Position numbers and translations under genes: made by a program. Below, one piece after another: positions 15,796 to 45,062 of a DNA stretch of 64,000 bases. Origin of the DNA: Methanoculleus receptaculi (GTDB taxonomy: Archaea; Halobacteriota; Methanomicrobia; Methanomicrobiales; Methanoculleaceae); contig NZ_CP137642.1 in the NCBI RefSeq assembly GCF_033472595.1, positions 806,001 through 870,000 of the forward strand, read 5' to 3'. The notes under the pieces were generated by a model. The model worked only from the letters and a program-made list of their open reading frames with translations. It was not told the origin of the DNA and made no database searches. Each line of letters starts with the position of its first letter. Position 1 is the first letter of the stretch.

Positions 15796-16166
15796 ACCTC
15801 AGAGCAACCCGCCTGATCATGGGTATTCTATGAGGGTGACCATAAGCCCTCCGATCGTGTCGGCGATCGATGCCATAGCAACATCCCGTATCTCACCCGC
15901 CCCGAAGGCGGTGTGGGACTGTATCCTGTATCTGCTGTAACCTCTTCCCGGCCCTGCGGCAATCGCAAGCGTCCGGCTCTAAGCCGGAGCCGCCGCCATG
16001 GGCGGTCTGCCGGCTGCGGATTGCGGCCCCGGTGGGGGCGTCCCTCGAGGGCTTGAGTTCGCGAAGGTGGCAAAAGGGAAAGGGGGATCGAGAGTTTCTG
16101 GAATACGATGAAAAGAGCTATGTTTATCTTATCTACATTGAACATTTTGATTCAGTGACCAGCGTC
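15796..16166. other. Divergent promoter region with clustered hairpins
   Basis: This gap separates the CARF pair (minus) from the I-C operon (plus). At 15959-16024 several complements nest: GCAATC (15959-15964) with GATTGC (16019-16024), CCGGCT (15973-15978) with AGCCGG (15982-15987), and CCGCC (15993-15997) with GGCGG (16001-16005). A second CCGGCT at 16010-16015 could pair with the same AGCCGG, so two folds compete. The stretch 16115-16160 is A/T rich and probably holds the cas3 promoter. An open frame continues upstream of cas3 from 16032 but lacks family similarity. Confidence 0.5.
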
Positions 16167-18350
16167 ATGTATTATGCACACTCTACGGACAGCCCCGACA
16201 AGAGATGCTGGCAGTTGCTTGGGGTTCACCTCAAGAATGTGGCTGACATCGCCTCGACGTTTGCCGATCGTTTCGATGCCGGTGATCTCGCCTATGCGGC
16301 GGGTCTATTGCACGACATCGGGAAGTATTCGATTGAATTTCAGCGGCGTCTGGAGGGTGCCAGTATTCGGGTTGACCATTCAACCGCCGGTGCGCGGGAG
16401 GCCCGGGCGCTGTACAACTGGCAGTTAAGCCGTTTACTGGAGTACATCATCACGGGGCACCACGGAGGGCTCTTAAATTACGGCAGCAGCGAGAGCGGGC
16501 TTGAGGAGCGCCTGGCAAACAAATATCTGCCGGATTATTCGGCATACCGTGAGGAGATCTCGGTCCCTGATCTAACAAATTTCCGCATCAAATTGCGTCC
16601 TATCAGGAAAAAGAAGGGCTTTTCGGTATCTTTCTTCACACGAATGCTTTACTCGTGCCTTGTCGATGCAGATTCCCTCGACACAGAATCTTTTGCAGAT
16701 CCCCGGTCGGCCCGTGCTCGTGGGCAGTATGAATCGTTCGAAAACCTTTCGAAGAAATTAGATGACTACATGGTCTCCCTCCACTCAAAAGCAGAGGACA
16801 CCGCGATCAACAGGTACAGAAGAGAGATTTATGAACGGTGCAGAGCAATGGCCACTCTCCCGCCACAGTTCTTTTCCCTGACCGTTCCGACCGGCGGGGG
16901 GAAGACTCTCTCATCGATGGCGTTTGCGCTTGACCACCTGAAATATCATGGCTTGGATAGGATCGTTTATGTAATCCCATATACCAGCATCATCGAACAG
17001 AACGCTGCGACGTTCAGGAAGGTCTTCGGAGGCCGGAACGTGCTGGAACATCACAGCAACTTCGACCCCGCGGCGATAGTCGACGACGATGTTGGCTCGG
17101 TGGAGCACTTTCTGAAACTCTCAGCCGAGAACTGGGACATGCCAATAGTTGTAACTACAAACGTCCAGTTTTTTGAATCTCTTTTCTCTAACAGGCGGTC
17201 AAGATGCAGGAAGATCCACAATTTAGCCCGGAGTGTCATCATACTCGACGAAGCCCAGATGTTACCAACGGAATACTTAATGCCCTGCCTGCAGGCTCTC
17301 TCCGAACTCGTCCGGAACTATGGCTCTACGGTTCTCATCTGCACGGCAACCCAGCCGAAACTTGGCGATCTTCTGGACAGGGAACTCAGGCCCGTTGAGA
17401 TCATGCATTCGCCTGAAGAACTCTATGAGGCTTTCCGCCGGGTGCGTGTAACCGATCTTGGATCCTTGAGCGACGAAGAACTCTCCGCGAGGCTGAAAGA
17501 GCATCGCCAGGTCCTGTGTATTGTCAATACCAGAGCCCATGCACAGAACCTGCATGCTGAACTCTCGAAACATGAGAAGTGTTTCCACCTGAGCGCCCGG
17601 ATGTGCCCGGTTCACAGGAGAAAGCAGCTCGGCGAGATCAGGAGACTGCTCAGGGAAGGTGCTGACTGCCGTGTCGTCTCAACCCAGTTGATAGAGGCCG
17701 GTGTGGATATAGATTTTCCAGTGGTCTACCGCGCGATAGCCGGTGTTGACTCCATTGCCCAGGCAGCCGGCCGGTGCAACCGTGAGGGAAAGAACGAGAG
17801 GGGGGATGTCTATATCTTCCGGTCAACCGAGCGCTACGGTCAGGCTACCACCAGCTGGCAGCGCCTGACTGCGGAGATTGGCCGGATGGTCATCGACACC
17901 CATGAAGATCCGCTCTCTCTTCAGACCGTTGAGGCATACTTCCAGAAGCTTTACTCGTATGAGGGTGAGGACGGACTCGATAAGAAAAAGATAATATTCT
18001 CATTTGAGAAGAGGGCTCGTGACCTCGCATTTCCGTTTGAGGATGTGGGGTGGGAGTTCAGCATCATCGAACAGGCTACAAAGGATCTCATCATCCCCTA
18101 CGGTGAAGAGGGGAGATCACTCCTCAATGACCTCAGGACCGGTGAGAATCCATGGAAGTATGCACGACGTCTCCAGGGGTATACGATCGGTATCTACCCC
18201 GACGAGTTCAAGGAACTTGAACGGGCAGATCTAATCGATCTGCTGGATGAGAGGTTCTATGTGCTCAATGACATGAGCAAATACTCCGAGGAGATTGGAC
18301 TTATAAACAGAAAAGGTATTGAAGAGGAAAGGTCACTACTGATTGTTTAG
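16167..18350 (+). CDS. cas3: Cas3 helicase-nuclease, type I-C
   Basis: Cas3 is recruited by Cascade, unwinds target DNA and degrades one strand. The HD nuclease motif is LLHDIGKYS near residue 50. Then come the SF2 helicase motifs: TGGGKTLSS (Walker A), LDEAQML (motif II) and QAAGRCNREG (motif VI). I chose the ATG at 16167 (MYYAHSTDS), giving 727 residues, because the frame upstream of it has no Cas3 resemblance. It opens the type I-C operon; cas5c follows five bases after its stop. Confidence 0.95.
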   Translation: MYYAHSTDSPDKRCWQLLGVHLKNVADIASTFADRFDAGDLAYAAGLLHDIGKYSIEFQRRLEGASIRVDHSTAGAREARALYNWQLSRLLEYIITGHHGGLLNYGSSESGLEERLANKYLPDYSAYREEISVPDLTNFRIKLRPIRKKKGFSVSFFTRMLYSCLVDADSLDTESFADPRSARARGQYESFENLSKKLDDYMVSLHSKAEDTAINRYRREIYERCRAMATLPPQFFSLTVPTGGGKTLSSMAFALDHLKYHGLDRIVYVIPYTSIIEQNAATFRKVFGGRNVLEHHSNFDPAAIVDDDVGSVEHFLKLSAENWDMPIVVTTNVQFFESLFSNRRSRCRKIHNLARSVIILDEAQMLPTEYLMPCLQALSELVRNYGSTVLICTATQPKLGDLLDRELRPVEIMHSPEELYEAFRRVRVTDLGSLSDEELSARLKEHRQVLCIVNTRAHAQNLHAELSKHEKCFHLSARMCPVHRRKQLGEIRRLLREGADCRVVSTQLIEAGVDIDFPVVYRAIAGVDSIAQAAGRCNREGKNERGDVYIFRSTERYGQATTSWQRLTAEIGRMVIDTHEDPLSLQTVEAYFQKLYSYEGEDGLDKKKIIFSFEKRARDLAFPFEDVGWEFSIIEQATKDLIIPYGEEGRSLLNDLRTGENPWKYARRLQGYTIGIYPDEFKELERADLIDLLDERFYVLNDMSKYSEEIGLINRKGIEEERSLLIV

Positions 18351-18355
18351 GGGAG

Positions 18356-19036
18356 GTGAGAGCAATTGGGTATGGAGTAAGACTGAAGGTCTGGGGCGAT
18401 TACGCCTGCTTCACCCGCCCGGAGATGAAGACGGAACGGGTGAGCTATGATGTCATGACCCCGTCAGCTGCTCGTGGGATTCTCGAGGCAATCCACTGGA
18501 AGCCTGCCATCCGGTGGAAGATCGACAAAATTCATGTCCTCAACCCGATCAAGTTTGATAACATCCGCCGAAACGAGAGATCCGGCAAGATCCCCGCAGC
18601 CAAAGTTAAGACTGCGCTCCGCGGCGGGGATGTGAGACTTTTTCAGGATGCGTCAGATGACGCCGTCCAACGGGCGTCACTGGTGCTGCGCGATGTCTGC
18701 TACGGCATTGAAGCGCATTTTGAACTGACCGGCGAGGCAGGTCCTGAAGATAGCGTCGAGAAGCACTACAGCATTGCGCTCCGCAGGATGCGGAAAGGTC
18801 AATGCTTCTACCAGCCTTACTTTGGCTGCCGTGAGTTCCCCGTTAGATTCGAACTCGTTGAAGGGGAGATGCCAAAGTCGTACTACACCGGAGAGAACGG
18901 CGGAGAGAAAGATCTCGGGTTTATGCTGTACGATATCGATTTCTCCAACGGCATGAAGCCAATTTTTTACCGGGCGGTCATGGTGGACGGCATTATCGAC
19001 GTGGAGCGGTGCCTTGGGTATGGAGGCGTGTCATGA
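18356..19036 (+). CDS. cas5c: Cas5c (Cas5d), pre-crRNA nuclease of type I-C
   Basis: In type I-C, which has no Cas6, Cas5 cuts the repeat transcript and stays bound to the crRNA 5' handle. The 226-residue protein has VWGDYACFTRPEMKTER near the start, and then YDVMTPSAARGILEAIHW, both typical of Cas5d. The start is unclear. A GTG at 18356 overlaps the ribosome-binding site GGAGGTGA (18352-18359), while an in-frame ATT at 18365 would be well spaced after it. It ends in ATGA, shared with cas8c. Confidence 0.93.
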   Translation: MRAIGYGVRLKVWGDYACFTRPEMKTERVSYDVMTPSAARGILEAIHWKPAIRWKIDKIHVLNPIKFDNIRRNERSGKIPAAKVKTALRGGDVRLFQDASDDAVQRASLVLRDVCYGIEAHFELTGEAGPEDSVEKHYSIALRRMRKGQCFYQPYFGCREFPVRFELVEGEMPKSYYTGENGGEKDLGFMLYDIDFSNGMKPIFYRAVMVDGIIDVERCLGYGGVS

Positions 19037-20925
19037 TCATACAGTCCCTCTGCCGGTATTATGATATTCTGGCGGAGGATGAGGATGCAGGGATCTCCAG
19101 GCCGGGGTACAGCAAGGGGAATGTGTCGTTTGCGCTTGTCCTCAGCCCGGAGGGTGAGTTATCTTATATAGTCGATCTCAGGATTGATGACAACAAGAGA
19201 AAGCGGCCAAGGGCTATGGATGTCCCCCAGCAGGGGGTTCGCTCCGCGGGAATAGCACCCAACGTTCTCTGCGATAACGCGAAATACATCTTTGGTGTTG
19301 AGAAGCTCAAACGAAGTGAGTTCGAAAAGAAGTTCGTGAAGTCTTCCGGAAAGGGCGCGTCGTCTGATTACAGGATCCTTGCTGAGACGGAGAAAGAGGT
19401 GGTTCTGGTTAACCAGCGGTCACGCGATTCATTTGAAGCCTTCAAGAACCTTCATCACAGGCTGTTTGACTCTCTGGACGATCGGGGTATCAGGGCTCTC
19501 CTGACCTTTCTGGACACCTGGAACCCCGAGGAGTTCGCCCGGCACCCGAAGATTGTGGAATACATGGACGAACTCCTTGGTGGTGGGAATTGTGTCTTTG
19601 AGTGTGAGGAGGTATTTCTGCACACGAAACCAGCCGTGATGGAGATCTGGGAGAATCACCTCACCCAGGAGGGGGATGATGAGGTTTTTACTACCCAATG
19701 CCTTGTAACCGGCAAGACTGCTCCTGTTGCGCGAGTGCACAACAAAATCGCTGGAGTTGTTGGTGCGCATCAGGCAGGTGCGTCGCTCGTCACGTTCAAC
19801 GATGTCTCATTCTGCTCTTACGGAAAAGAGCAGAGTTTTAACGCTCCTATCAGTAAATCGGCGATGTTTAAATACACCACCGCTCTTAACCACCTGCTTG
19901 CACATCAGGACTACCGTATACGAATTGCCGACACAACTGTCGTTTTCTGGGCGGAGACGAGTGGAACAGCCTGTGAAGAGGTTGCCAATCTCCTCTTCGA
20001 TCCACCGGATGTCTTTGAGGGCGATACGGGAGGGCAGGATCAGGACACGGAGAGGGTTCAGGACTGGCAGAAGATCGAGTTGATCCGGGACATCCTCGAT
20101 AAGGTCAGGAATGGTCGGAAGATCAATCTTGATGATATCGGGGCTGACCCGGAGACGAATTTCTACATACTTGGTCTGGCACCCAACAATGCGAGACTTG
20201 CAGTGCGGTTCTGGCATGTGGACAGTTTTGGCAATTTCGTCACAAAAGCAGCGCGTCATCACCTTGATATGGAGATCGTTAGAGGGGGTCGCGATCCACG
20301 ATACGTGTCGCTGTACCGCCTTCTGCGGGAGACTGTAGCACAGAGTGCTGAGAATAAGACCCCCGCACCGCTTCTTGGAGGCCTTGTTATGAGGTCGATC
20401 CTGAACGGTACACCGTATCCTGTTCAGATGTATGGTGCGATTCTCAGCAGGGTGAAGGTTGAGCGGTCGATCAACTCTGTCAGGGCGGGCTTCATTAAGG
20501 CCTACCTGCTGCGGCTTTCGAGAGCCGGTTTGACGAATTTAAAGGAGGATTTGATTAGCGTGAGCCTTAAAAAAGATAATCAGAATGTGCCGTATCGCCT
20601 CGGGCGGCTGTTTGCCATACTCGAGAAGGCACAGACTGATGCAAACAAAGATGTAAAGAGCACGATCAGCAGCAAGTACTTCAGCAGTGCGTCGACGACG
20701 CCAGCTGTGGTCTTCCCGGTTCTGCTGAAACTTGCACAGCATCATATAGCCAAGTCTGACTGGGGGTTCAAGACCGCCAGGGATATTGAGGAAGTGTTGG
20801 ATGGCGTGGATGAGTTCCCCGCATATCTGAGTCTTGAGGAGCAGGGGATGTTTATGCTTGGTTATTACCATCAGAGGAAGGCGAGTTTCACCAAAAAAGA
20901 GGATGTTGTGAGCGAGGAGGCGTAA
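19033..20925 (+). CDS. cas8c: Cas8c (Csd1), large subunit of type I-C Cascade
   Basis: The large subunit recognises the PAM and holds the target DNA. The start is the ATG at 19033 (MIIQSLCRYYDIL), overlapping the cas5 stop, with TGGAGG just upstream. The opening with RPGYSKGNVSFALVLSPEG is characteristic of Csd1. It has 630 residues, slightly above the usual size. In type I-C an internal start in this gene often yields a small Cas11c subunit from the C-terminal third. Methionine codons exist there, but I cannot pick one. Confidence 0.94.
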   Translation: MIIQSLCRYYDILAEDEDAGISRPGYSKGNVSFALVLSPEGELSYIVDLRIDDNKRKRPRAMDVPQQGVRSAGIAPNVLCDNAKYIFGVEKLKRSEFEKKFVKSSGKGASSDYRILAETEKEVVLVNQRSRDSFEAFKNLHHRLFDSLDDRGIRALLTFLDTWNPEEFARHPKIVEYMDELLGGGNCVFECEEVFLHTKPAVMEIWENHLTQEGDDEVFTTQCLVTGKTAPVARVHNKIAGVVGAHQAGASLVTFNDVSFCSYGKEQSFNAPISKSAMFKYTTALNHLLAHQDYRIRIADTTVVFWAETSGTACEEVANLLFDPPDVFEGDTGGQDQDTERVQDWQKIELIRDILDKVRNGRKINLDDIGADPETNFYILGLAPNNARLAVRFWHVDSFGNFVTKAARHHLDMEIVRGGRDPRYVSLYRLLRETVAQSAENKTPAPLLGGLVMRSILNGTPYPVQMYGAILSRVKVERSINSVRAGFIKAYLLRLSRAGLTNLKEDLISVSLKKDNQNVPYRLGRLFAILEKAQTDANKDVKSTISSKYFSSASTTPAVVFPVLLKLAQHHIAKSDWGFKTARDIEEVLDGVDEFPAYLSLEEQGMFMLGYYHQRKASFTKKEDVVSEEA

Positions 20926-20927
20926 AT

Positions 20928-21779
20928 ATGAGCGAACCTATTAAAAATCGGTATGAGTTTGTACTGTTGTTCGATGTAGAGAACGGTAATCCGAACGGCG
21001 ACCCGGATATGGGGAATATGCCGCGGGTCGATCCCCAGACCGGACATGGCATCGTTACCGATGTCTGTCTCAAGAGGAAGGTTCGGGATTACGTTGAAAT
21101 GGTAAAGGGTGATGCACCGGGCTATATGATCTACGTCAAATCTGGTGTGGTTCTGAACGATCAGCACAAGAAGGCGTATGATTACCTTGGCATCGAACCA
21201 AGCAGCAAAAAGCCGAAGGATAGTAGACTGACGAAGTTTATGTGCGATAATTTCTTTGATATTCGGACGTTCGGGGCCGTGATGACCACAGACGTGAACT
21301 GTGGGCAGGTTCGTGGACCGGTGCAGTTGAACTTCGCCCGAAGCATTGATCCGATATTTCAGCAGGAGGTTACAATTACCCGGCAGGCGGTTGCGAACGA
21401 AAGGGATGCCGAGAAGGGGCAGACAATGGGGAAGAAACAGATTGTCCCATACGCCCTGTATCGTGCTGAGGGGTACATCTCCGCTCACCTGGCCCAGAAG
21501 ACGACGGGGTTCTCGGAGGACGATCTGAAACTTTTCTGGGAGAGCCTGGTCAACATGTTCGAACACGATCATTCGGCCTCAAGGGGAAAGTTGTCCGCCA
21601 GGAAACTTATCGTATTCAAGCACGATACCCCGCTTGGATGCTGTCAGTCCCATATCCTGTTTGATAAGGTCAAAGTGGAGAGAGTTTCCGGTGATCGACC
21701 TCCACGCTCCATTGGAGATTACAAGGTCGCCGTTGACAGAGATGTGCCTGCTGGCGTAGAGGTAATCGAGTTCTTATGA
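20928..21779 (+). CDS. cas7c: Cas7c (Csd2), backbone subunit of type I-C Cascade
   Basis: Cas7 subunits line up along the crRNA spacer. The 283-residue protein starts MSEPIKNRYEFVLLFDVENG and continues NPNGDPDMGNMPRVD, the classic Csd2 opening. It later has the TTDVNCGQVRGPVQ loop near residue 125. The gene starts two bases after cas8c and overlaps cas4 by four. Confidence 0.95.
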   Translation: MSEPIKNRYEFVLLFDVENGNPNGDPDMGNMPRVDPQTGHGIVTDVCLKRKVRDYVEMVKGDAPGYMIYVKSGVVLNDQHKKAYDYLGIEPSSKKPKDSRLTKFMCDNFFDIRTFGAVMTTDVNCGQVRGPVQLNFARSIDPIFQQEVTITRQAVANERDAEKGQTMGKKQIVPYALYRAEGYISAHLAQKTTGFSEDDLKLFWESLVNMFEHDHSASRGKLSARKLIVFKHDTPLGCCQSHILFDKVKVERVSGDRPPRSIGDYKVAVDRDVPAGVEVIEFL

Positions 21780-22462
21780 GGGAGATGCGATACACCGACG
21801 ACGAATTGCTGGCGCTGTCGGGTATTCAGCATTTCTGTTTTTGTCGCCGACAGTGGGCGCTTATTCACATCGAGCGCCAGTGGGAGGATAACCTGCGGAC
21901 CGTGGAAGGGGAGGCGGTACACAAGCGGGTGAACGATCCATTTTTCGCCGAGAGCCGTGGCGATGTGGTAATTTCACGTGCGTTCCCTCTGGTTTCATAC
22001 GTTCTTGGTCTGTACGGTGTGGCGGATGTGGTTGAGTACGTCCGTTCTGAGGATGGTATTGCTCTTTCTGGTCGCGAGGGACTCTGGGCGATAAGGCCGG
22101 TGGAGTACAAGCGGGGGAAACCGAAGATTGATGAGCGTGATGAGGTTCAACTCTGTGCACAGGCGATGTGTCTTGAGGAGATGTTTGAGATCTATATCGA
22201 CCGTGGTGAGTTTTACTATAATGAGATCCGGAAAAGAGTGCCTCTTTTGTTCTCTGCTGAATTGAGGGACAAGGTCTGCTCGTTATCAGAAGAGATGCAT
22301 GTTCTCTTCAAAGAGGGTGTCACGCCGCCTGCAGATCCCTCTCGTAAGTGTAATCTATGTTCTCTCCAGGATGTCTGCATGCCAAAAATAACCAGGAAGA
22401 ATCTTTCCGTTCGCAGATATGTGCGCAAACACATTAAAGAGGCCTGTGTGGAGGATGTTTGA
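21776..22462 (+). CDS. cas4: Cas4, spacer-processing nuclease
   Basis: Cas4 trims prespacers and selects those with a correct PAM. It has an N-terminal cysteine in QHFCFCRRQW, a RecB-type nuclease core (EGEAVHKRV, then GVADVVEY and PVEYKRGK) and three C-terminal cysteines (CNLCSLQDVC) that close a 4Fe-4S cluster. It has 228 residues. Its start shares ATGA with cas7c; an ATG three codons later is also possible. It sits directly before cas1 and cas2, as is normal for type I-C. Confidence 0.95.
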   Translation: MREMRYTDDELLALSGIQHFCFCRRQWALIHIERQWEDNLRTVEGEAVHKRVNDPFFAESRGDVVISRAFPLVSYVLGLYGVADVVEYVRSEDGIALSGREGLWAIRPVEYKRGKPKIDERDEVQLCAQAMCLEEMFEIYIDRGEFYYNEIRKRVPLLFSAELRDKVCSLSEEMHVLFKEGVTPPADPSRKCNLCSLQDVCMPKITRKNLSVRRYVRKHIKEACVEDV

Positions 22463-22528
22463 CTGTTTAAGACGTCTCAGGGGCTGCGCTACCTGGAAAG
22501 GAACTCTGTATCCAGGAATGGTCTTTAA

Positions 22529-23560
22529 ATGAGGAAGTTGCTGAATACCCTTTACGTGACAACACCGGATGCTTACCTGGCCCGCGATGGGGAGAACTTG
22601 GTGGTAAGGGTTGGTAACGAGGAGAAATTCCGTATTCCGATCCACAACCTCGAGGGGGTCGTGTGTTTCGGCTACATGGGTGCGAGCCCTCATCTGATGA
22701 GGCTTTGTTCTGAAAATAATGTGGGCCTATCCTTTTTAACGCCGTCCGGGAAGTTTCTGGCCCGGGTTAGCGGGCGCGTCCGCGGCAACGTTCTGTTGCG
22801 GCGGACACAGTACCGGAAGGCGGACAATCGTCTGGAGTCGCTGGAGATATCAAAGTCTTTTATTATAGGCAAGATCGTAAACTGTAGAACTATCCTCGGA
22901 AGGGGTATCCGCGATCACAGTGCTGTAATCGATTGCGATCGGGTCAGGGGGGTGGATGCCCTGTTGATCGAGAACCTCCTGAAGATCGAGGATTGCGATT
23001 CTGCGGATACGCTGCGTGGGATTGAAGGGAATTGCGCAAAATTCTATTTCGTTGCACTTGATGATCTGATCCTCAGGCAGAAGGACGTTTTTTACATGCA
23101 TGAACGGAATCGGAGGCCGCCACTGGATAATATGAACACACTCCTCTCTTTTTTGTACACGCTTCTTGCTCACGATGTTGAGTCCGCACTGGAGACGGTC
23201 GGGCTTGATCCATATGTTGGATTTTTTCACACCGATCGTCCCGGGCGGCCCGGGCTGGCGCTGGATATGATGGAGGAACTGAGGCCGTATATGGCAGATC
23301 GTCTTGCGCTGAATCTTGTAAATTTAAATCAGGTCAACGGGGACGATTTTTATAAAAAAGAGAATGGAGGGGTTATTATGAAAGATGACGGACGGAAAAC
23401 GGTGATAGCCGCATGGCAGAAGAGGAAGCAGGATATGATCACGCATCCTTACCTGAACGAGAAGATCCCTATAGGTCTGCTCCCTTATGTGCAGGCAATG
23501 CTGATGGCCCGTTTTCTCCGGGGTGATATTGATGGTTATCCGCCGTTCTTTATGAATTGA
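22529..23560 (+). CDS. cas1: Cas1 integrase, type I-C
   Basis: An intact 343-residue Cas1. The catalytic residues are visible: Glu in GIEGNCAKFYF near residue 168, His in GFFHTDRPGRPG near 233, and the acidic pair in DMMEELRP near 247. With the cas2 that follows it makes the adaptation complex for the large array 3. Because the type III cas1 is frameshifted, this is the only clearly intact Cas1 in the window. It is separated from cas4 by a 66-base gap without a gene. Confidence 0.96.
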   Translation: MRKLLNTLYVTTPDAYLARDGENLVVRVGNEEKFRIPIHNLEGVVCFGYMGASPHLMRLCSENNVGLSFLTPSGKFLARVSGRVRGNVLLRRTQYRKADNRLESLEISKSFIIGKIVNCRTILGRGIRDHSAVIDCDRVRGVDALLIENLLKIEDCDSADTLRGIEGNCAKFYFVALDDLILRQKDVFYMHERNRRPPLDNMNTLLSFLYTLLAHDVESALETVGLDPYVGFFHTDRPGRPGLALDMMEELRPYMADRLALNLVNLNQVNGDDFYKKENGGVIMKDDGRKTVIAAWQKRKQDMITHPYLNEKIPIGLLPYVQAMLMARFLRGDIDGYPPFFMN

Positions 23561-23569
23561 GGTGCCTGT

Positions 23570-23860
23570 ATGATGGTTCTGGTAACTTATGATGTCAACA
23601 CAGAGACTCCAGAGGGAAAGAAACGGCTACGCAAGGTGGCGGCAGAATGTGTGAATTATGGGCAGCGTGTGCAGAACTCTGTGTTTGAGTGTCTCGTTGA
23701 CCCCGCACAGTTTGCCAGGCTTAAGTGTTCTCTCTGTGAATTGATTGATATGGAGAAGGATAGTCTCCGGTTTTACTACCTGGGGAAGAACTGGAAAAAC
23801 CGGGTGGAGCACTTCGGTGCGAAGGAGGGATACGATCCGGAAGGCTTATTGATTACATGA
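23570..23860 (+). CDS. cas2: Cas2, type I-C
   Basis: A 96-residue protein opening MVLVTYDVNTETPEGKKRLR, the standard type I Cas2 start with the conserved Asp. It has QRVQNSVFEC in the middle, also typical. It is the last cas gene before array 3 and starts nine bases after cas1. A double ATG leaves the first residue uncertain by one. Confidence 0.95.
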   Translation: MMVLVTYDVNTETPEGKKRLRKVAAECVNYGQRVQNSVFECLVDPAQFARLKCSLCELIDMEKDSLRFYYLGKNWKNRVEHFGAKEGYDPEGLLIT

Positions 23861-24155
23861 GTTTGCGAACCTCTGGTGAACAGCGGATCCCCCGGGAGGT
23901 TCGCGGGATTTTCCTTCATGTCCTATATTACCTTTATGGGGGTGGTCACTTCCCTGTCGGAGGTGAGTTCTTGATCTTGATTGATGAAGCACTGTCAAGT
24001 AATATCTCGATATAAATATTTTCAATAAGGGATATATTTTGATCTATCCGATTTTAGCGGGAACAACATTTATCACCCTCTAGATTCATTATCAAATGAT
24101 CTAGCGTCAGACCATATTCCATGAAATGGTTGAACGTTGATCTGGGTTGTTTGCA
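23861..24155 (+). promoter_or_regulatory. Leader of CRISPR array 3
   Basis: This gene-free, A/T-rich stretch lies between cas2 and the first repeat. A TATA box (TATAAATA) is at 24011-24018, with a second A/T block at 24031-24040. Transcription would run rightward through the array. No similarity to the leader of arrays 1 and 2 is visible. Confidence 0.75.
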
Positions 24156-27100
24156 GTCGCACCCTTCACGGGTGCGTGGATTGAAATTTCTTGCGCCGGT
24201 TGTATATCGTCACAACCACGAGTCGCACCCTTCACGGGTGCGTGGATTGAAATATTATGGTCAAGGCCCGGGACAAGCCGGCGATCGAGTCGCACCCTTC
24301 ACGGGTGCGTGGATTGAAATGATGGGTTCGGGCGGGGGCATCTTCGAGCCCGGCGGTCGCACCCTTCACGGGTGCGTGGATTGAAATGTGTTTTGATGAA
24401 TATATGAAAATGTATCGTGGAGGTCGCACCCTTCACGGGTGCGTGGATTGAAATTGCGGTAGGGATGGCTACCTCGCGATCGCCCACCGCGTCGCACCCT
24501 TCACGGGTGCGTGGATTGAAATAGTCGATCGCGATACCACGGGAGTGGGTGCCGCACGTCGCACCCTTCACGGGTGCGTGGATTGAAATTGGTCCCCGGC
24601 CCGCATCGGCGCGGTGATCGGGGCGTCGCACCCTTCACGGGTGCGTGGATTGAAATTCAAACCACTTTCTGGTCCCCGGCCCGCATCGGGTCGCACCCTT
24701 CACGGGTGCGTGGATTGAAATACCGGGCCGCTGCGCTGGTGCGGGTCTGCCGGGATGTCGCACCCTTCACGGGTGCGTGGATTGAAATTCGGTGGTGCGG
24801 ATGCGGCGGACGGAGCTCTTCGGTCGCACCCTTCACGGGTGCGTGGATTGAAATCCGATCATCAGGAGCCGGGACTGGTCTGACGTGAGCGTCGCACCCT
24901 TCACGGGTGCGTGGATTGAAATCGCCCCGCAGGCGAGGCGCGGCTCGACCTCTACAGTCGCACCCTTCACGGGTGCGTGGATTGAAATCCATTCACCCCC
25001 CACCTCAATACAGCGGGGTTCGAGTCGCACCCTTCACGGGTGCGTGGATTGAAATAACGAGACGGTCGATCTCCTCACGACCATCCGCGAGTCGCACCCT
25101 TCACGGGTGCGTGGATTGAAATCTCAAGGACTTGGCGTGTGCCCGGCTCCGGGCTGGTCGCACCCTTCACGGGTGCGTGGATTGAAATTCCAGGGCGAGG
25201 AAGAGGTTCGGCGGGTGCCGATGTCGCACCCTTCACGGGTGCGTGGATTGAAATCTCTTCAGTTGGTGGGGCTGTGTAGACCGTGCCCCGTCGCACCCTT
25301 CACGGGTGCGTGGATTGAAATTCCCATTTGTCGAGTAATTTCCATGTAAGATCTGCGTCGCACCCTTCACGGGTGCGTGGATTGAAATCATCAGGTGTTG
25401 CCACCCAGACCACCCACGACGAGTCGCACCCTTCACGGGTGCGTGGATTGAAATACCTGGCGTATCGGCCGCAACACCTTTGATCCTGGTCGCACCCTTC
25501 ACGGGTGCGTGGATTGAAATATCGTGGATGTCCCATGAGGTGCCGATGAATAGGTGTCGCACCCTTCACGGGTGCGTGGATTGAAATGCAGAGAGATACG
25601 ATGTCAACCACCGGTGAGGTGGGTCGCACCCTTCACGGGTGCGTGGATTGAAATAAGACATCTCACATCTGATTGGGAAACGAGTTTATGTCGCACCCTT
25701 CACGGGTGCGTGGATTGAAATATGTGCGCCCATGCCCAGAGATCAAACCACTCTTGTCGCACCCTTCACGGGTGCGTGGATTGAAATAGAAGCAATTGCT
25801 GCACCACCAATTGCAGTCCCAAGTCGCACCCTTCACGGGTGCGTGGATTGAAATAGGCAGGTACTCCAAGTACTCTATATGGGCTTCCAAGTCGCACCCT
25901 TCACGGGTGCGTGGATTGAAATGGCGAGGTGGAGGTGCCATATCCAATTATCGGCGCGTCGCACCCTTCACGGGTGCGTGGATTGAAATGAGATGCCGAA
26001 CTCCAAAATCGAAAACTTGCCGATGGTCGCACCCTTCACGGGTGCGTGGATTGAAATTCACAGGTGCGAAACTCACAATTAATCGCGAATGTCGCACCCT
26101 TCACGGGTGCGTGGATTGAAATCGGAGGGGAGGCGAGGATCGGCTCGGTCTTATCGAGTCGCACCCTTCACGGGTGCGTGGATTGAAATCGATAGGGATG
26201 ATTACCATGTGGTCTGGCTCGGTCGGTCGCACCCTTCACGGGTGCGTGGATTGAAATAAATTTAGACGATTTTAGAAAAAGAATTGTAAAGGTCGCACCC
26301 TTCACGGGTGCGTGGATTGAAATCATGAGTAGTATATCAGTAGTGAGTAGTATTATCCGGTCGCACCCTTCACGGGTGCGTGGATTGAAATAATCGATAT
26401 GGTGATTTGATTAATGAATTGCATTGTCGCACCCTTCACGGGTGCGTGGATTGAAATAGACGGCGCATCTTTTTAAGGCAGCCGCGTTAACGGTCGCACC
26501 CTTCACGGGTGCGTGGATTGAAATGTGAAACACACGCTGCGGTGCCAGCATTATATAGTCGCACCCTTCACGGGTGCGTGGATTGAAATTAGTCAAAAAC
26601 GGGAAGGAAGTTGTCAGGGTCGTGTCGCACCCTTCACGGGTGCGTGGATTGAAATCGGCTCTGATGTCATCCCTAACCATTTTGTTGTGTCGCACCCTTC
26701 ACGGGTGCGTGGATTGAAATATGTGGTCGGATAGCGAACTAAAAGCCCGAAACAAGGTCGCACCCTTCACGGGTGCGTGGATTGAAATTGATGATGGGGT
26801 ATCCGGCATCTGATAATTCCGGGCGGGTCGCACCCTTCACGGGTGCGTGGATTGAAATCCGGAACCATCACGATTGAGAATCCAGTACCGGAAGTCGCAC
26901 CCTTCACGGGTGCGTGGATTGAAATCCCCAAGGATGGATTATATCAGCCTCATGAAGATGTCGCACCCTTCACGGGTGCGTGGATTGAAATCACAGATCC
27001 GCGCGTACCGACCGCCGTACGCACTGTCGCACCCTTCACGGGTGCGTGGATTGAAATACCGCCTCCGCCCGACGAGATAGGCAATGCCTGCGTCGCACCC

Positions 27101-30100
27101 TTCACGGGTGCGTGGATTGAAATTCCAGATCTGTGGTTGTATTCAAGCACATCAAACCGTCGCACCCTTCACGGGTGCGTGGATTGAAATCCAGATACGC
27201 ACGTTATTAGCGTCGGTTGTTATGGTCGCACCCTTCACGGGTGCGTGGATTGAAATTACCACCTGCTCACCGCCTGGAATAGTACTCTCCGTCGCACCCT
27301 TCACGGGTGCGTGGATTGAAATCTGTAACCGTACTCAGTAGGTACGCACTCATTTTGTCGCACCCTTCACGGGTGCGTGGATTGAAATTCTATACAATAC
27401 TCTCTATGAAAGTGTCTCAAAAAGTCGCACCCTTCACGGGTGCGTGGATTGAAATCTATTGCACCTGCGACCTTGCCTGCTTTCAGTGCGTCGCACCCTT
27501 CACGGGTGCGTGGATTGAAATTCTTGCACTCTGCAATGATGGATCGGTTGTGGCGTCGCACCCTTCACGGGTGCGTGGATTGAAATGGGAGTGAGATCAC
27601 CGGAGGTTTAGGAAGGGAGATGTCGCACCCTTCACGGGTGCGTGGATTGAAATTTCTTGCGCCGGTTGTATATTGTCACAACCACGATAGTCGCACCCTT
27701 CACGGGTGCGTGGATTGAAATAAAACCGTTCCTGAATGATGCTCTTTGGCACTATCGTCGCACCCTTCACGGGTGCGTGGATTGAAATCGGAAGGCAGGC
27801 CGATCCACAAAGACCCCCCCGTCGCACCCTTCACGGGTGCGTGGATTGAAATTGGGAGCGTCCTGATCATCGACCCTGTGACTGAGACGTCGCACCCTTC
27901 ACGGGTGCGTGGATTGAAATTGAGGTGAAAAAATGCGATATACTGGAACAATCACGTCGCACCCTTCACGGGTGCGTGGATTGAAATAGCATCGCCACAC
28001 CAGGGAGGACCGTCGATCCTAGTCGCACCCTTCACGGGTGCGTGGATTGAAATGCTCCTACTGCGATCGCACTCTGGCATAGACGGGTCGCACCCTTCAC
28101 GGGTGCGTGGATTGAAATCTCACGATCGCACTCCCCATGATCATCGGGACGTTCGGTCGCACCCTTCACGGGTGCGTGGATTGAAATTACTCTTTCTCTC
28201 CACCAAAAACCGCTGTGCTTGAAGTCGCACCCTTCACGGGTGCGTGGATTGAAATCTAAAATCTCCCTGCCCAAAATCTCCTTACCTAAAGTCGCACCCT
28301 TCACGGGTGCGTGGATTGAAATTGTAATGCCATATAAAATAACTTAAACGTCATAGTCGCACCCTTCACGGGTGCGTGGATTGAAATCGGGAACGTTGCT
28401 GGGGGCGGTGCACAGTTTGCAGGTCGCACCCTTCACGGGTGCGTGGATTGAAATAATTTTTGGTGTATAATTAAGAGAGAGAACATATGTCGCACCCTTC
28501 ACGGGTGCGTGGATTGAAATCGTCATTATTGTCTACAAAATATTTTGCAGTTCGGTCGCACCCTTCACGGGTGCGTGGATTGAAATCAAGACTTGATGAT
28601 ATTTGAGCTCTCTGAGTAGTAGTCGCACCCTTCACGGGTGCGTGGATTGAAATTTTCATATGGTTTAGCATACCAACTTTGTATAAGTCGCACCCTTCAC
28701 GGGTGCGTGGATTGAAATTTGCATGAGTCGAGAAGGTGAACCAATCTCAAAGAAGTCGCACCCTTCACGGGTGCGTGGATTGAAATAGTGGAGGGTTGTA
28801 ATGGTTAAAACCGTCCTCACGTCGCACCCTTCACGGGTGCGTGGATTGAAATAATTCCAACCCGTCAACGTTCGACTCTCTCTGCGTCGCACCCTTCACG
28901 GGTGCGTGGATTGAAATCACGAGGTGCACATCCTTGTGATCGTCGACGAGGGTCGCACCCTTCACGGGTGCGTGGATTGAAATATTTCGTCTTTTGATTC
29001 GATGAGAACCTGGCCGCGTCGCACCCTTCACGGGTGCGTGGATTGAAATTCGTCTACCACTACCGAGTTTTTAACCAGCCCAAACGTCGCACCCTTCACG
29101 GGTGCGTGGATTGAAATCCGACCTCCTGCTTGGTGAGTAGTGGCACCTGGGTCGCACCCTTCACGGGTGCGTGGATTGAAATCTTGGCTTCAAGTATGTA
29201 TCAAAGCACACGGTGCATGTCGCACCCTTCACGGGTGCGTGGATTGAAATGCCGTGACCCGAGAGATCTCCACCGTACGGGGGTAGTGTCGCACCCTTCA
29301 CGGGTGCGTGGATTGAAATTCGTGACCAGATCGTGTGGGCAGAGGAAAACCCACAGTCGCACCCTTCACGGGTGCGTGGATTGAAATAAATTGTGACCGG
29401 CCGGCCACGCGGTGCATCTCTGGTCGCACCCTTCACGGGTGCGTGGATTGAAATGGACCTCGTGGATGCACCTTACAGGCACGTGCAGGGTCGCACCCTT
29501 CACGGGTGCGTGGATTGAAATCAAGTGTTACATGATATAATAGGTGTATGCACATGTCGCACCCTTCACGGGTGCGTGGATTGAAATACCACAGAGAGCC
29601 GCCGTCCCCCGTTTCACGTTGAAGTCGCACCCTTCACGGGTGCGTGGATTGAAATCGCGAATATTGGATGTCGGAAATTGCAGGCAAACGTCGCACCCTT
29701 CACGGGTGCGTGGATTGAAATGTCTTGTGGGGGAAGGGCGAGCCGATAGTTCCGAGTCGCACCCTTCACGGGTGCGTGGATTGAAATCAGAGGAACACGC
29801 CGAGGCGGCCTTTTGGTGCGGCGTCGCACCCTTCACGGGTGCGTGGATTGAAATCGGGGATACGTCGGGACTGGACACCCCAGGAGGATGTCGCACCCTT
29901 CACGGGTGCGTGGATTGAAATCGGTGGCTCATCATCTCCAGACAACCTTCGGGATGTCGCACCCTTCACGGGTGCGTGGATTGAAATCTGGTGAGACCGC
30001 CGCCGTGACGCAGGCACAACGTCGCACCCTTCACGGGTGCGTGGATTGAAATTTCTAACGGCCGCCACCCTTTGGGCCGCCGCGGAAAGTCGCACCCTTC

Positions 30101-32779
30101 ACGGGTGCGTGGATTGAAATAGCGCTGGCGGCGAACACAGGCCTCAACGATACCCGTCGCACCCTTCACGGGTGCGTGGATTGAAATACAGATATCACAA
30201 CGGCGGATAATCTCTCATCACGTCGCACCCTTCACGGGTGCGTGGATTGAAATCCCCGCCACTACAGGAGGGATGGTTCGAAGAATTCGTCGCACCCTTC
30301 ACGGGTGCGTGGATTGAAATGACAATTCGCCCAGGAACTTTGTAATGTCCTGTAGGTCGCACCCTTCACGGGTGCGTGGATTGAAATTAAAAAAGGAGGA
30401 ATTAAAGATACTGATCTCGTGAGTCGCACCCTTCACGGGTGCGTGGATTGAAATGGTAACGTTTGCGCTCCAGTATCAGAACGACATCGTCGCACCCTTC
30501 ACGGGTGCGTGGATTGAAATCCGGAGATCGACATCTCCACTACCGGGGCGACCGTCGCACCCTTCACGGGTGCGTGGATTGAAATAAAAATCTCTTTAGA
30601 TTATGGTCTTTTCTTGAAAAAGTCGCACCCTTCACGGGTGCGTGGATTGAAATCAATTATATTATATCCTGATGGAATTGAAATTGGAGTCGCACCCTTC
30701 ACGGGTGCGTGGATTGAAATCGTTCGGATGAACCGAACCCGGGCCCACAACATAGTCGCACCCTTCACGGGTGCGTGGATTGAAATCCCAAGGTGGGGGT
30801 AAAAATGATAATAACAATAAGTCGCACCCTTCACGGGTGCGTGGATTGAAATAAAACCACATTTTCGACACCTGAACAAGGAACCATTGTCGCACCCTTC
30901 ACGGGTGCGTGGATTGAAATAAGATGGAAAGAACGCTAATTACTTTTTTATTAGTCGCACCCTTCACGGGTGCGTGGATTGAAATTGTGAAAATGTTTAC
31001 GGCTATAATGGTGTAGACGTGTCGCACCCTTCACGGGTGCGTGGATTGAAATCCCAGCATTTCCGCCAGGATAAAAACTCCCAAGGTAGTCGCACCCTTC
31101 ACGGGTGCGTGGATTGAAATTATATATCTGATATTCTCTACATTTTGCGCCCAAGTCGCACCCTTCACGGGTGCGTGGATTGAAATTTTAATCTCATTTT
31201 TAAAAGCGCAATTCAATAAAGTCGCACCCTTCACGGGTGCGTGGATTGAAATTAAATTGTTATTTTGCCATTTTACCTTTAATATAGTCGCACCCTTCAC
31301 GGGTGCGTGGATTGAAATTTTTAACTCTATTATAAAATTCCAAAGCGAAAACGTCGCACCCTTCACGGGTGCGTGGATTGAAATTATACCAAAACTTGTC
31401 GTTATCTTTTTCTTTAAGTCGCACCCTTCACGGGTGCGTGGATTGAAATAAACATGACCGTGTGGTCGCTCATGAGGTATAGGACGTCGCACCCTTCACG
31501 GGTGCGTGGATTGAAATTCTAAAGCGCATAAAATCGTTGCTGAACCAGACAGTCGCACCCTTCACGGGTGCGTGGATTGAAATTCATTAGAGCCACATAT
31601 TAGCGATATAGAGCACGTCGCACCCTTCACGGGTGCGTGGATTGAAATAATAACATACAAGTTTTATAACAAGTAATATTGTGTCGCACCCTTCACGGGT
31701 GCGTGGATTGAAATCTTTGAATTGGAGCCAGAGGAATTCTGGCGTATAAGTCGCACCCTTCACGGGTGCGTGGATTGAAATCGCTACCGGCACGGGATGT
31801 CCTATCCCAAGGGCAGTCGCACCCTTCACGGGTGCGTGGATTGAAATTTGCCTGGGTAGAAGGTACAAGAGCACCATCACAGTCGCACCCTTCACGGGTG
31901 CGTGGATTGAAATCTGCAAAACGGGCGGATGGACGGCAGCAACATGCAAGTCGCACCCTTCACGGGTGCGTGGATTGAAATTTGATGGACTATCGCTGCA
32001 AGACATTACAAAGTTGTCGCACCCTTCACGGGTGCGTGGATTGAAATTGTCTCCGGTTGGCGCGTACCAATAGTCGCACAGAGTCGCACCCTTCACGGGT
32101 GCGTGGATTGAAATTTGATGAACGAATACACCCGGAAACCCACGTTAAGTCGCACCCTTCACGGGTGCGTGGATTGAAATTTATCGACGAGGTCGAGAAC
32201 ACTATCGCTTACCAATGTCGCACCCTTCACGGGTGCGTGGATTGAAATTGTCTCCGGTTGGCGCGTACCAATAGTCGCACAGAGTCGCACCCTTCACGGG
32301 TGCGTGGATTGAAATTGTCTCCGGTTGGCGCGTACCAATAGTCGCACAGAGTCGCACCCTTCACGGGTGCGTGGATTGAAATTAGGTGAAACGGCAATTT
32401 CCGTTGAACAATCGGGTCGCACCCTTCACGGGTGCGTGGATTGAAATCTTTATTTCTATCCCCAATATTACAAGGTATCGAGGTCGCACCCTTCACGGGT
32501 GCGTGGATTGAAATAGAGTTTTGAATTTCCACGTAATCGAGCCTGGAAGGTCGCACCCTTCACGGGTGCGTGGATTGAAATCAGGAGGCCTGTGCCTTGA
32601 CGACTGGTCACTGTAGTTGCACCCTTCACGGGTGCGTGGATTGAAATACCATCAACATCGCAGAGAAGTGTGCAAATTATGTCGCACCCTTCACGGGTGC
32701 GTGGATTGAAATTCATCAGTAACATCGCTGGCATCAATACACCGGACGTCGCACCCTTCACGGGTGCGTGGATTGAAAT
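24156..32779 (+). CRISPR. CRISPR array 3 (type I-C, 130 repeats, 129 spacers)
   Basis: I counted 130 copies of a 32-nt repeat, from 24156-24187 to 32748-32779, with spacers of about 33-37 nt. The repeat has a perfect 7-bp hairpin (CGCACCC, loop TTCAC, GGGTGCG) and ends GTGGATTGAAAT, matching the type I-C class except for the final T instead of C. The repeats hardly vary; the copy at 32616 has GTTGC for GTCGC, near the old end. New spacers enter at the left. The spacer at 32048-32082 recurs at 32249-32283 and 32316-32350. Spacers near the leader show overlapping and repeated sampling of the same target, see findings. Confidence 0.99.
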
Positions 32780-32906: not shown

Positions 32907-33842
32907 ATGAGGGTCTGCGATCCAAGGCCGTTTTTGAAGTGGGCTGGCGGAAAAGGCCAACTCCTGGGCGAGTTTGAGGCGCGGCTTCCGCGGGCGGTGA
33001 GAGAGGGCCGCGCCTCTGCATACGTTGAGCCGTTTGCAGGCGGAGGGGCCGTTTACTTCCATATCACCAGTAAATACGCTTTTGACGAGTGTCACATCTT
33101 TGATACCAACGAGGATCTCATCCTGGCCTACACGGTTGTCAGGAATGACGTTGACGACCTGATTGAGGTGTTGAGGGGTATGGAGACCACATACCTGAAT
33201 TTAGACGCCAAAAAGCGAGAGGAGTTTTATTACACCGTCCGCCGCGAGTACAACAAAGAGAGATCCTCAATTCAGTTGAACAACTACAGCAAAGCATGGG
33301 TCCAGAGGGCTGCAGACCTCATATTCCTCAACAGAACCTGTTTTAACGGACTATTCAGGGTCAACTCAGAAGGCTCCTTCAATGTTCCGGCCGGCCGCTA
33401 CAGGAACCCGAAGATACTGCACGAGGAACTGCTGCGAAGCGATTCTGAACTGCTTGAAAACACAGGAATACACCATGGCGACTTCTCATCGTGTGCCCCC
33501 TTTGTCGATGAGAAGACCTTCGTCTACTTCGACCCGCCGTACCGCCCCCTGAACCGGTCATCGAGTTTTACATCATACTCAAAAGGCGGGTTTGGTGACG
33601 ATGAACAGCGGCGTCTTGCCGCGTTCTTCCGTGACCTGGACGCCAGGGGGGCGATGCTGATGCTCAGCAACTCCGACCCGAAAAATCAGGATCCCTCGGA
33701 TAACTTCTTTGACGAACTTTACGCCGGATATTGCATCGAGAGGGTGCCCGCCCGGCGCATGATCAACTCCAATGCTGACCGGCGCGGGGAGATCAACGAG
33801 GTCATAATCACAAACTACAGACCCGCGATCACCGATCGGTAG
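32907..33842 (+). CDS. dam: DNA adenine-N6 methyltransferase, Dam/D12 class
   Basis: Transfers a methyl group from SAM to adenine, probably in GATC as for the family. The SAM-binding motif reads FLKWAGGKGQLL near the start with EPFAGGGAVYF next, and the catalytic motif is FDPPYRPL near residue 210. The order of motifs is that of the alpha class. It has 311 residues, complete. No restriction endonuclease gene is next to it, so it looks like an orphan. It starts 127 bases after array 3. Confidence 0.93.
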   Translation: MRVCDPRPFLKWAGGKGQLLGEFEARLPRAVREGRASAYVEPFAGGGAVYFHITSKYAFDECHIFDTNEDLILAYTVVRNDVDDLIEVLRGMETTYLNLDAKKREEFYYTVRREYNKERSSIQLNNYSKAWVQRAADLIFLNRTCFNGLFRVNSEGSFNVPAGRYRNPKILHEELLRSDSELLENTGIHHGDFSSCAPFVDEKTFVYFDPPYRPLNRSSSFTSYSKGGFGDDEQRRLAAFFRDLDARGAMLMLSNSDPKNQDPSDNFFDELYAGYCIERVPARRMINSNADRRGEINEVIITNYRPAITDR

Positions 33843-42151: not shown

Positions 42152-43264
42152 CTATAGATGAGGAGTGTGTCTAAAAAACCTTATCTCATGATCCATCCAC
42201 GAGCCGGTTATTCTGCCATCGAGCGCCAGTTTTCCAAGGACGCTCTCGGTCTCCGGAAGGAGCGGCCGGGGGCGGGCGTTTGAGAGCGGTGTCCCCGGCA
42301 GCGGCATGAAGTAGTGGATATGCGCCTTCCCGGCCCGCGTCACCTCCCTCACCAGGTCGAGCGTTGCGCGCTGGTCATCATCGGTCTCAAATGGCAGCCC
42401 CAGGATGAAATCGACGACCGGAACGAGCCCGTATTCGCGGCAGAGGTCGACGGCGGAAAGGACGTCCTGGACCGTATGCCCCCGGTGCAGACGGCGCAGC
42501 ACCGCATCACTCCCCGACTGCGCCCCAAAGTGAAGACGGGTGTTGGCGCAGTGGCCGGTCACGAGTTCAAGGGACTCTCGCGAGACGCACTCCGGGCGCA
42601 CCTCGCCCGGAAATGTGCCAAAGAAGACCCGCCGACCATCGAGTTGCCGGAGGAGCCGTTCTACCCTGTCAAGCCGCAGATGGATGCCGTCAGAGCCGTA
42701 GGCAAAGGCGTTCGGGGCTACGAACCGGATATCCCGGTAGCGCGAGGCGTAGCGGACGATCTCGTCGATGGAGCGGTGGCGCATACACCGCCCGAAGAGG
42801 CGCGGCGTCTGGCAGTAGCCGCAGGAGAATGGGCATCCCCTCGTTATCTCGACAAAACCCTTGATACGCGAGAAGGGCGGGTAACCGTCGAGGAGAACGG
42901 TGTGTTGTGCAGGGGTGTAGCCCGCAGAGGTGGCAACCCCTGGAGGAGCGTTCCGCCCATCCTCGATGGCGGCAAGAAGCGCCGGGAGGGTGTACTCGCC
43001 CTCCCCGACGACGACGTAATCGGCGTATTCGGCCACCTCACGGTAGCAGGCGGAGGCATGAGGCCCGCCGACAATCGTTATACAGTCTGCGCCGGCGATC
43101 TCATCACGGTAGACGCGCTCGTTGATAGAGTTCAGGCTGTAGATGGTGACGTCCGGCCGGGGGCCGTCCGCCACATCGAGTTCGTAGCCGTGCACCTCGC
43201 ACGCCGCAGCAAGCGCGGCGAGGGTGTTCCTCGCCTGGGGGATGTATCGCCAGTATACCCTCAT
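42152..43264 (-). CDS. B12-binding/radical SAM protein (MJ1487-like)
   Basis: The N-terminal part resembles a B12-binding Rossmann domain (DVTIYSLNSINERVYRDEI, ITIVGGPHASACYREV, VVVGEGEYTLPALL). The radical SAM core then carries the cluster motif CPFSCGYCQ, a Cys-X3-Cys-X2-Cys, near residue 155. The later DFILGLPFETDDD strand is typical of elongator-type radical SAM enzymes. The product is unknown. The ATG at 43264 (MRVYWRYIPQARN) is chosen over an earlier in-frame ATG. The first 49 bases of the gene are copied twice at the junctions of the triplicated region. Confidence 0.85.
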   Translation of the reverse strand: MRVYWRYIPQARNTLAALAAACEVHGYELDVADGPRPDVTIYSLNSINERVYRDEIAGADCITIVGGPHASACYREVAEYADYVVVGEGEYTLPALLAAIEDGRNAPPGVATSAGYTPAQHTVLLDGYPPFSRIKGFVEITRGCPFSCGYCQTPRLFGRCMRHRSIDEIVRYASRYRDIRFVAPNAFAYGSDGIHLRLDRVERLLRQLDGRRVFFGTFPGEVRPECVSRESLELVTGHCANTRLHFGAQSGSDAVLRRLHRGHTVQDVLSAVDLCREYGLVPVVDFILGLPFETDDDQRATLDLVREVTRAGKAHIHYFMPLPGTPLSNARPRPLLPETESVLGKLALDGRITGSWMDHEIRFFRHTPHL

Positions 43265-43302
43265 ATCACGGGTTTTGCGGGCGTGCCGGGTGCTCAAAGC
43301 GT

Positions 43303-43722
43303 TCAGACTGACTTCTCCCAGCCCTGGCCCATGTCAACGATCGGGCGGACCTCCGTGACCTCAAATGTCAGCGTGGCGTGCATCATCTTCGCCGCATCCT
43401 CGCCCAGTGCCGCTGCAACCTCTCTCTTGTAGTCCTCAAGTTTCTTACCCGAGGTCGCGCAGTCCTTCAGTTTCAGGTAGACCCGCAGACCCTTCCAGTC
43501 CATGAGGGTCTCCCCTGGTTCGAGGATGGTGTAGACGGCATGGGGATTCTGCTGCAGGTAGTCGAGAGTGCGGTTCTTTCCAAGCCCCATAACGACGGTC
43601 TTCTCGTCGACCATCTGCGGCGAGCCGAAGAGAGCTGCGTTTACCTTTCCCTCTCTGTTAGCGGTGCTCAGGATGCCTATCCTTGGCTGTTTGTTGAAGT
43701 AGTCCATCAATCTGGATGACAT
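43303..43722 (-). CDS. Pyridoxamine-phosphate-oxidase-like FMN protein, copy 1
   Basis: A 139-residue split-barrel protein of the PNPOx-like superfamily, likely binding FMN or F420 and reducing a small substrate. It starts MSSRLMDYFNKQPRIGILSTAN, the usual opening strand, with VVMGLGKNRTLDYLQQNP in the middle, a typical flavin-site stretch. It ends DMGQGWEKSV. It differs from copies 2 and 3 by Gln for Arg in SPQMVDEKT. It starts 38 bases before the radical-SAM start and reads in the same direction. Confidence 0.85.
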   Translation of the reverse strand: MSSRLMDYFNKQPRIGILSTANREGKVNAALFGSPQMVDEKTVVMGLGKNRTLDYLQQNPHAVYTILEPGETLMDWKGLRVYLKLKDCATSGKKLEDYKREVAAALGEDAAKMMHATLTFEVTEVRPIVDMGQGWEKSV

Positions 43723-43831
43723 AATTCTTTCCTCCTATCGATTCGAAAATTGTCACTTCTGGGTAAAAAAGGTATGGTTGAGTGCCCTTCCGGCGCGCAA
43801 ATGAAACATTTTCAGCCGCGTCCGCCCAGTT

Positions 43832-44638
43832 TCAGTAGCCTGTGGCGTAGTAGTAGCCGTTTTCTCTGTGGATATGAACCGGAACGCGGAAGAGTTCGCC
43901 GATATTTCTCTCAGTCAGCACCTCGGCCTTTTCGCGGTCCATCACGATCGCACCATCCCGCATCAGAACCACCCGCGAGATTTCCGGGATGATATCATGG
44001 AGGTTGTGCGTCACCAGGACGATTCCCGTCCCCGACCTGGCAATCTTTCTAAGGGTCTTTCGGAAGGAGTGGAGCGCGTGCAGGTCGAGACTGTTTGTGG
44101 GTTCGTCGAGTACGAGAGTGCCCGGGTCGTGGACGAGCGCCCTTCCGATCAGAAGCCTGCGGGCCTCACCCGAGGAGACCTCCGTCATCGGCCGGTCGGC
44201 GAGGTGGGCGACATCCAGGAACTCGAGGATATCGTCCGCCTTCTGCTCCATCGCCGGTGTCACCTCATGGTAGAAGAGCCCGATGCTCGAGAAGAACCCG
44301 GAGAGCACAACCTCGCGCCCCGAGATCCCGCGGGTGAAGGTATACTGGAGGTCGCCGGAGACGAGCCCGATGTGCGATCGGAGGTCAAAGGCATCCCATG
44401 TATCAAGCCCGCAGAACCGAAAGACAGTCTCCGAGCCCGGCGAGGAGGGGTAGTATTCCCGGGTGACCGCCCGGATGAGCGACGATTTCCCGGCGCCGTT
44501 TGGCCCGAGAATGGCGAGATGCTCGCCCTCCTGTATCGTGAGCGAGATGGAGTCAAGGAGTCTATGGCCGCCCCGGACAATGGTGACGTTTCGAAACTCG
44601 ATGAGCGGGTGGTGGGGAGAGTGGTCTTCAGCCGTCAT
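43832..44638 (-). CDS. ABC transporter ATP-binding protein, copy 1
   Basis: A 268-residue ABC ATPase from the ATG at 44638 (MTAEDHSPHHPLIEF). Walker A is GPNGAGKSSL, the signature is VSSGEARRLL, and Walker B is LVLDEPTNSLD with the switch His in VTHNLHD. No permease or binding protein is nearby, so it may be a stand-alone ATPase related to the YlmA/ModF group. The frame continues upstream of the ATG to 44953, but that part is non-coding in character. It has Pro in FRVPVHIH where copies 2 and 3 have Gln. Confidence 0.88.
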   Translation of the reverse strand: MTAEDHSPHHPLIEFRNVTIVRGGHRLLDSISLTIQEGEHLAILGPNGAGKSSLIRAVTREYYPSSPGSETVFRFCGLDTWDAFDLRSHIGLVSGDLQYTFTRGISGREVVLSGFFSSIGLFYHEVTPAMEQKADDILEFLDVAHLADRPMTEVSSGEARRLLIGRALVHDPGTLVLDEPTNSLDLHALHSFRKTLRKIARSGTGIVLVTHNLHDIIPEISRVVLMRDGAIVMDREKAEVLTERNIGELFRVPVHIHRENGYYYATGY

Positions 44639-45062
44639 CTTGACCGCTCCGTCGCGTGGGTGTTCTGGTAGAGGGATTCCATCGAACCTCGCCGCTCTGT
44701 ATGTTGGACGGCTCTCTTCAAAAGGTAACCTTCTCTCGTGGCGCGGGGCGGCGGGGTGTTCTGCAAGTATATACCGTTCCGGGGTATGCAGAGACGAGGG
44801 AGGGAAAGTTTCCTTTCCCCTCCATAGATACAGTGCCACCGTGGAGACCTCTTCTCTGGTGTCAATGTGAACGCCCTCACCGAAATCCCATTCCTGCCAA
44901 CGCGAACGACTCGATGGCATCGGTGAACCGGCTTGATAGCCCCCCGCATACAACCAGGAGACGCTGGCCGGGTTTGTGTCACAGAATCGTTGATCTGATG
45001 GCCTCTACTCGCCCATCGTGCAGACCATAAGATTAATCCCCCCTCCCCTGGAACAGAGCCAT
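44639..45062. other. Non-coding spacer of the repeated unit, copy 1
   Basis: This divergent promoter region lies between the ABC and DUF169 genes and recurs at 47166-47590 and 49694-50117. It has a 7-bp hairpin (GGGAAAG 44802-44808 with CTTTCCC 44813-44819). Its segment 44821-44930 resembles the intergenic region at 36370-36475, and 44986-45002 resembles 39992-40008. I see no gene in it. Confidence 0.5.

Follow-up and report, generated by a model that had tools for sequence, protein, structure and literature searches.

Spacers 1 and 53 of the type I-C CRISPR array of Methanoculleus receptaculi are near-identical, and we consider it very probable that they represent the same PAM-flanked site of one invader lineage, captured twice and at different times by the type I-C adaptation machinery. 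Both lie in the window, the 64,000-nucleotide stretch of genomic DNA analysed here (Table 1). Written in the same register, the two agree at 33 of 34 bases; the sole substitution, at position 21, is C in spacer 1 and T in spacer 53, the latter being longer by two 3'-end bases, TA. An earlier note on this DNA had described the pair as near-identical, with the C/T difference and unequal lengths, and its coordinates, numbering and lengths proved exact; its statement that the first 20 bases are the same is true but understates the likeness. Chance is excluded as an explanation: across all spacer pairs, about 3e-15 matches as good as this one and in one register are to be expected, and the best pair score is 31 in the real array (spacers 1 and 53) against 11 in three shuffled arrays. 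The host genome holds the sequence at zero mismatches in two places, which are the two spacers themselves, and no further match was found outside the array at up to three mismatches. The two occupy unrelated positions in the array, separated by 51 other spacers; their neighbours, spacers 2 and 54, are unrelated to each other, and no other pair links the surroundings of the two.

Table 1. Features of the window considered in the text (all positions are those of the window).
Feature	Position	Strand	Remarks
Type I-C cas operon	16032-23860	+	cas3-cas5c-cas8c-cas7-cas4-cas1-cas2, NCBIfam matches
cas3	16032-18350	+	NCBIfam match
cas5c	18356-19036	+	NCBIfam match
cas8c/csd1	19009-20925	+	NCBIfam TIGR01863 Cas8c, 1.6e-134
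cas7/csd2	20928-21779	+	NCBIfam match
cas4	21776-22462	+	NCBIfam match
cas1c	22529-23560	+	NCBIfam TIGR03640 Cas1c, 9.3e-146
cas2	23570-23860	+	NCBIfam match
Leader region	23861-24155	+	about 295 bases, from cas2 to the first repeat; assigned by position only
CRISPR array	24156-32779	+	130 repeats, 129 spacers; first repeat begins at 24156; 129 repeats perfect, 1 with one substitution
Spacer 1	24188-24221	+	34 nt; C at position 21; adjoins leader
Spacers 7 and 8	24590-24689 (7, 24590-24624; 8, 24657-24689)	+	protospacers overlap, 13-base offset, 20 of 20 bases common
Spacer 53	27654-27689	+	36 nt; T at position 21; extra 3' TA
Spacers 93 and 118	30321-32015 (93, 30321-30355; 118, 31982-32015)	+	opposite-strand end overlap, 18 of 20 bases, E about 0.001
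Spacers 119, 122 and 123	32048-32350 (119, 32048-32082; 122, 32249-32283; 123, 32316-32350)	+	identical 35-nt copies near the old end
Variant repeat (GTTGCACC...)	32616-32647	+	the only variant repeat, one substitution; near the leader-distal end

The type I-C cas operon on the plus strand is complete, all seven genes scoring above the NCBIfam curated cut-offs. No other array of the genome uses this repeat, since a genome-wide count at up to three mismatches gave 130 forward and 0 reverse occurrences, which is the array's own repeat number. Over these 130 repeats of 32 bases (4160 bases) there is one substitution and no change of length. Spacer 1 had been taken for the newest spacer, a view consistent with its place next to the leader and by the variant repeat and exact spacer copies at the far end, 'newest' resting here on the usual leader polarity of the array. 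Cas1-Cas2 inserts new spacers at the leader end, exactly where spacer 1 stands. The G+C content of the spacers forms layers from one end of the array to the other (lag-1 correlation 0.35, with none of 10,000 permutations as high), as if capture had proceeded in batches from different invaders. Around these features, a gene for a Dam-family adenine methyltransferase lies directly 3' of the array (32907-33842), and a Csm1/Cas10-type gene (type III CRISPR) is found upstream of the type I-C operon on the minus strand (8983-11409). A 2.53-kb unit is repeated in tandem at 43215-50800, in three copies that are about 99% identical; its genes encode an ABC-transporter ATPase of 373 to 383 aa, a product of 139 aa and a DUF169 protein.

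Other spacers of the array show that relatives of Methanoculleus virus Blf4 attack this host. Blf4 is a published virus of a biogas Methanoculleus, and in the type I-U array of that Methanoculleus six imperfect spacers are directed against it (PMC8540584). Five of the 129 spacers match Blf4 with at most seven mismatches (spacer 12 at 2; spacers 7, 13 and 16 at 4; spacer 8 at 7), and weaker matches were obtained for spacer 74 at 9 and for spacers 30 and 115 at 10; shuffled controls (five sets of 129 spacers) gave 11 or more. These matches by themselves would point to a Methanoculleus as the host. The peptides encoded by spacers 12 and 13 are those of Blf4, and therefore their differences from it are silent in that frame. 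A scan of another 31 IMG/VR loci that carry a related terminase brought spacer 74 down to 7 mismatches in one of them (L005). The Blf4 terminase was sought in 40 genomes of the host's family and found in none; in relatives a single Blf4-like contig, G058:C59, was detected, and this through its spacer matches.

As written, spacers of this array have their PAM side at the 5' end. Spacers 7, 12 and 30 have Blf4 matches preceded by TTC; this trinucleotide also precedes the protospacers of spacers 7 and 8 on contig G058:C59, and it can be read within spacer 8 just before the base at which spacer 7 starts. It is present at three of the eight Blf4 matches, or at four once the other relative is counted, being absent from the Blf4 matches of spacers 8, 13, 16, 74 and 115; such absences would be expected if the relative had diverged or if some assignments were wrong. 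Spacers 1 and 53 share their PAM-side end, a common start that follows from the PAM fixing that end, and differ at the far end (34 against 36 nt); two random spacers of this array are of unequal length with a probability of 0.73.

On the preferred reading, Cas4-Cas1-Cas2 would first have captured a TTC-flanked site of a recurring invader lineage as spacer 53 and, after at least 51 further acquisitions, a second capture would have been inserted at the leader as spacer 1. The PAM would have set the common start, and loose trimming of the far end would have left 36 and 34 nt. The C/T difference would then go back to the source molecules, which would have varied at this base; in the simplest case, related invaders carried two alleles of a coding gene. 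Signs of independent acquisition have been published for Sulfolobus islandicus, namely offset, unequal length and SNPs (PMC2946923), and spacers 1 and 53 display two of them, unequal length and a SNP. The Sulfolobus islandicus cases are alike in that matching spacers stand at unrelated array positions, with 41 pairs listed of which 37 are offset, but they occur mostly between strains, whereas here the two spacers belong to one type I-C array and have the same start (PMC2946923). The earlier note had proposed that the same site was sampled again, from a relative carrying one substitution, in a return attack. The re-sampling is well supported by the common PAM-side end, the unequal far end, the place next to the leader, the silence of the change in two of five open frames and the unlikeness to true in-array copies; the relative and the viral return, and with them a viral source, the existence of two alleles and a second event that was a later encounter, are what we infer from this pattern.

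The reading frames bear on the nature of the source. Six-frame translation of spacers 1 and 53 leaves five frames open and one, on the reverse strand, with a stop. Of the open frames, three encode a different residue after the change at position 21 and two are unaffected by it, the change being silent; in both of these it falls at the third codon position: a forward frame (FLRRLYIVTTT; ATC/ATT, Ile) and a reverse frame (VVVTIYNRRK; ACG/ACA, Thr). This silence is weak evidence for a coding source.

Searches for the protospacer of spacers 1 and 53 covered several collections, which may omit near relatives of the host. Five degenerate patterns (forward frame 1, one reverse frame, and third-position-free in all three codon phases) gave no match in IMG/VR, and one third-position-free phase together with the exact core gave none in the GTDB species genomes. 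Among 232 genomes of the host's order there was no protospacer match, the host itself excepted, and a blastn comparison of spacer 53 with phage and plasmid records returned partial matches only (E 4 to 5). One IMG/VR match to an 18-base core was rejected as chance, only 21 of 36 bases agreeing and TTC being absent. An origin in Blf4 was likewise rejected: the best alignment, in the primase/helicase gene, has 22 of 34 bases and no TTC, and shuffled spacers score equally. Translated against viral loci, the two spacers reached a best score of 38, within the shuffled range (maximum 43). Since Blf4-like loci thus show no match above the shuffled level, the two spacers may derive from a different virus or from a plasmid.

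Two other origins for the pair have to be weighed. The first, which we regard as improbable, is that a single element carried two near-identical sites, in a repeated gene or an insertion sequence, each of them sampled once; there would then be no second relative and perhaps no return. A common start and one SNP would look alike under this account, but the 51 intervening spacers indicate that the captures were probably not simultaneous, and a search of the host genome at up to three mismatches gave no match beyond the array.

The second, more improbable still, is copying within the array, whereby a copy of spacer 53 would have been placed at the leader by recombination, or by re-integration of an excised unit, and would then have lost two bases and gained one substitution. 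Copying does occur in this array, spacers 119, 122 and 123 being identical, and the prior favours it: a published survey of duplicated spacers assigned 695 of 805 candidates to duplication and 8 of 805 to reacquisition (PMC11472070), although nearly identical spacers are grouped together in that survey. The marks of in-array duplication (the same sequence and length, usually in adjacent positions or as a block) are seen in spacers 119, 122 and 123 and are lacking in spacers 1 and 53; the array's known copies keep both sequence and length. Likewise, the duplication by repeat misalignment described in that survey resembles our case in placing nearly the same spacer twice in one array, but sequence and length are expected to be kept, whereas here both have changed and the newer copy is at the leader (PMC11472070). 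Copying would require, in one unit, a substitution and a two-base loss exactly at the border of spacer and repeat, where the 130 repeats record but one substitution and no length change; a hand estimate for a copy with a substitution (about 0.8%) and a border deletion (less than about 1 in 130) gives a chance below 1e-4, even before placement is considered, for the copied unit would need to land exactly at the leader. Unequal crossing-over would also have dragged neighbours along, and spacers 2 and 54 are unrelated. Recombination within the array, the alternative that the earlier note had itself named, is accordingly judged unlikely, because the sequence, length and neighbours of spacers 1 and 53 all differ.

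Repeated capture of the same region is not confined to this pair. Spacers 7 and 8 overlap with an E of 7e-7, and the two differences within the overlap of spacers 93 and 118, of third-codon type, are both silent, in the forward frame NFVMSC and in the reverse frame LQDITK; the latter pair is likely to be a second case of sampling relatives of one invader. Both pairs appear to show repeat sampling of one region, in line with the re-capture proposed for spacers 1 and 53. TTC occurs 877 times in the 37078 bases of Blf4, counting both strands. In a hand calculation that adopts this density for a pool of G bases, a random pair of spacers comes from the same site with a probability of about 42/G and from an overlapping neighbour with about 43/G, and the three overlapping pairs among 127 distinct spacers place G near 230 kb, within wide limits of about 80 kb and 1 Mb. 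A pool of about 230 kb would yield one same-site pair, and therefore no hot spot is required; where the invaders amount to a few hundred kilobases, it is to be expected that sites are now and then sampled again, and no special mechanism is needed.

A parallel to a second capture comes from the type I-C system of Legionella pneumophila Toronto-2005, in which two spacers target overlapping regions of LME-1 and were taken at different times, and in which one plasmid protospacer was taken twice independently under priming (PMC5071653). It resembles our array in subtype and in PAM (GAA downstream there corresponding to TTC upstream here), and there too an earlier and a later spacer of a single array are directed at overlapping targets, in that case in the mobile element LME-1; it differs in that the target has been identified and the earlier spacer is mismatched at the PAM or in the seed, while the difference here lies outside the seed (PMC5071653). 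The type I seed comprises positions 1-5, 7 and 8 (PMC5071653). Because position 21 falls outside it, recognition of the new allele by spacer 53 has probably been kept, at least in part, and therefore the second capture need not have been an answer to escape. Priming by the old spacer 53 is possible. We entertain only tentatively, as a rather unlikely elaboration of the second capture, that spacer 1 is a refreshed memory. Spacer 53, weakened by its age, its distance from the leader and its one mismatch, would have primed the type I-C machinery on a drifted relative, whose current allele of the same PAM site was then recorded anew at the leader; if this were true, one array would hold a dated allele pair of one viral site.

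Spacers 1 and 53 thus provide a clean but ordinary case of an already known phenomenon, repeat sampling with SNPs or length differences. Spacer pairs of this kind calibrate how small the invader pool of a host is. Two dated alleles of one site in a single array would be a direct, if small, record of change in an invader between encounters, and the pair would also record that this host met the same invader lineage again.
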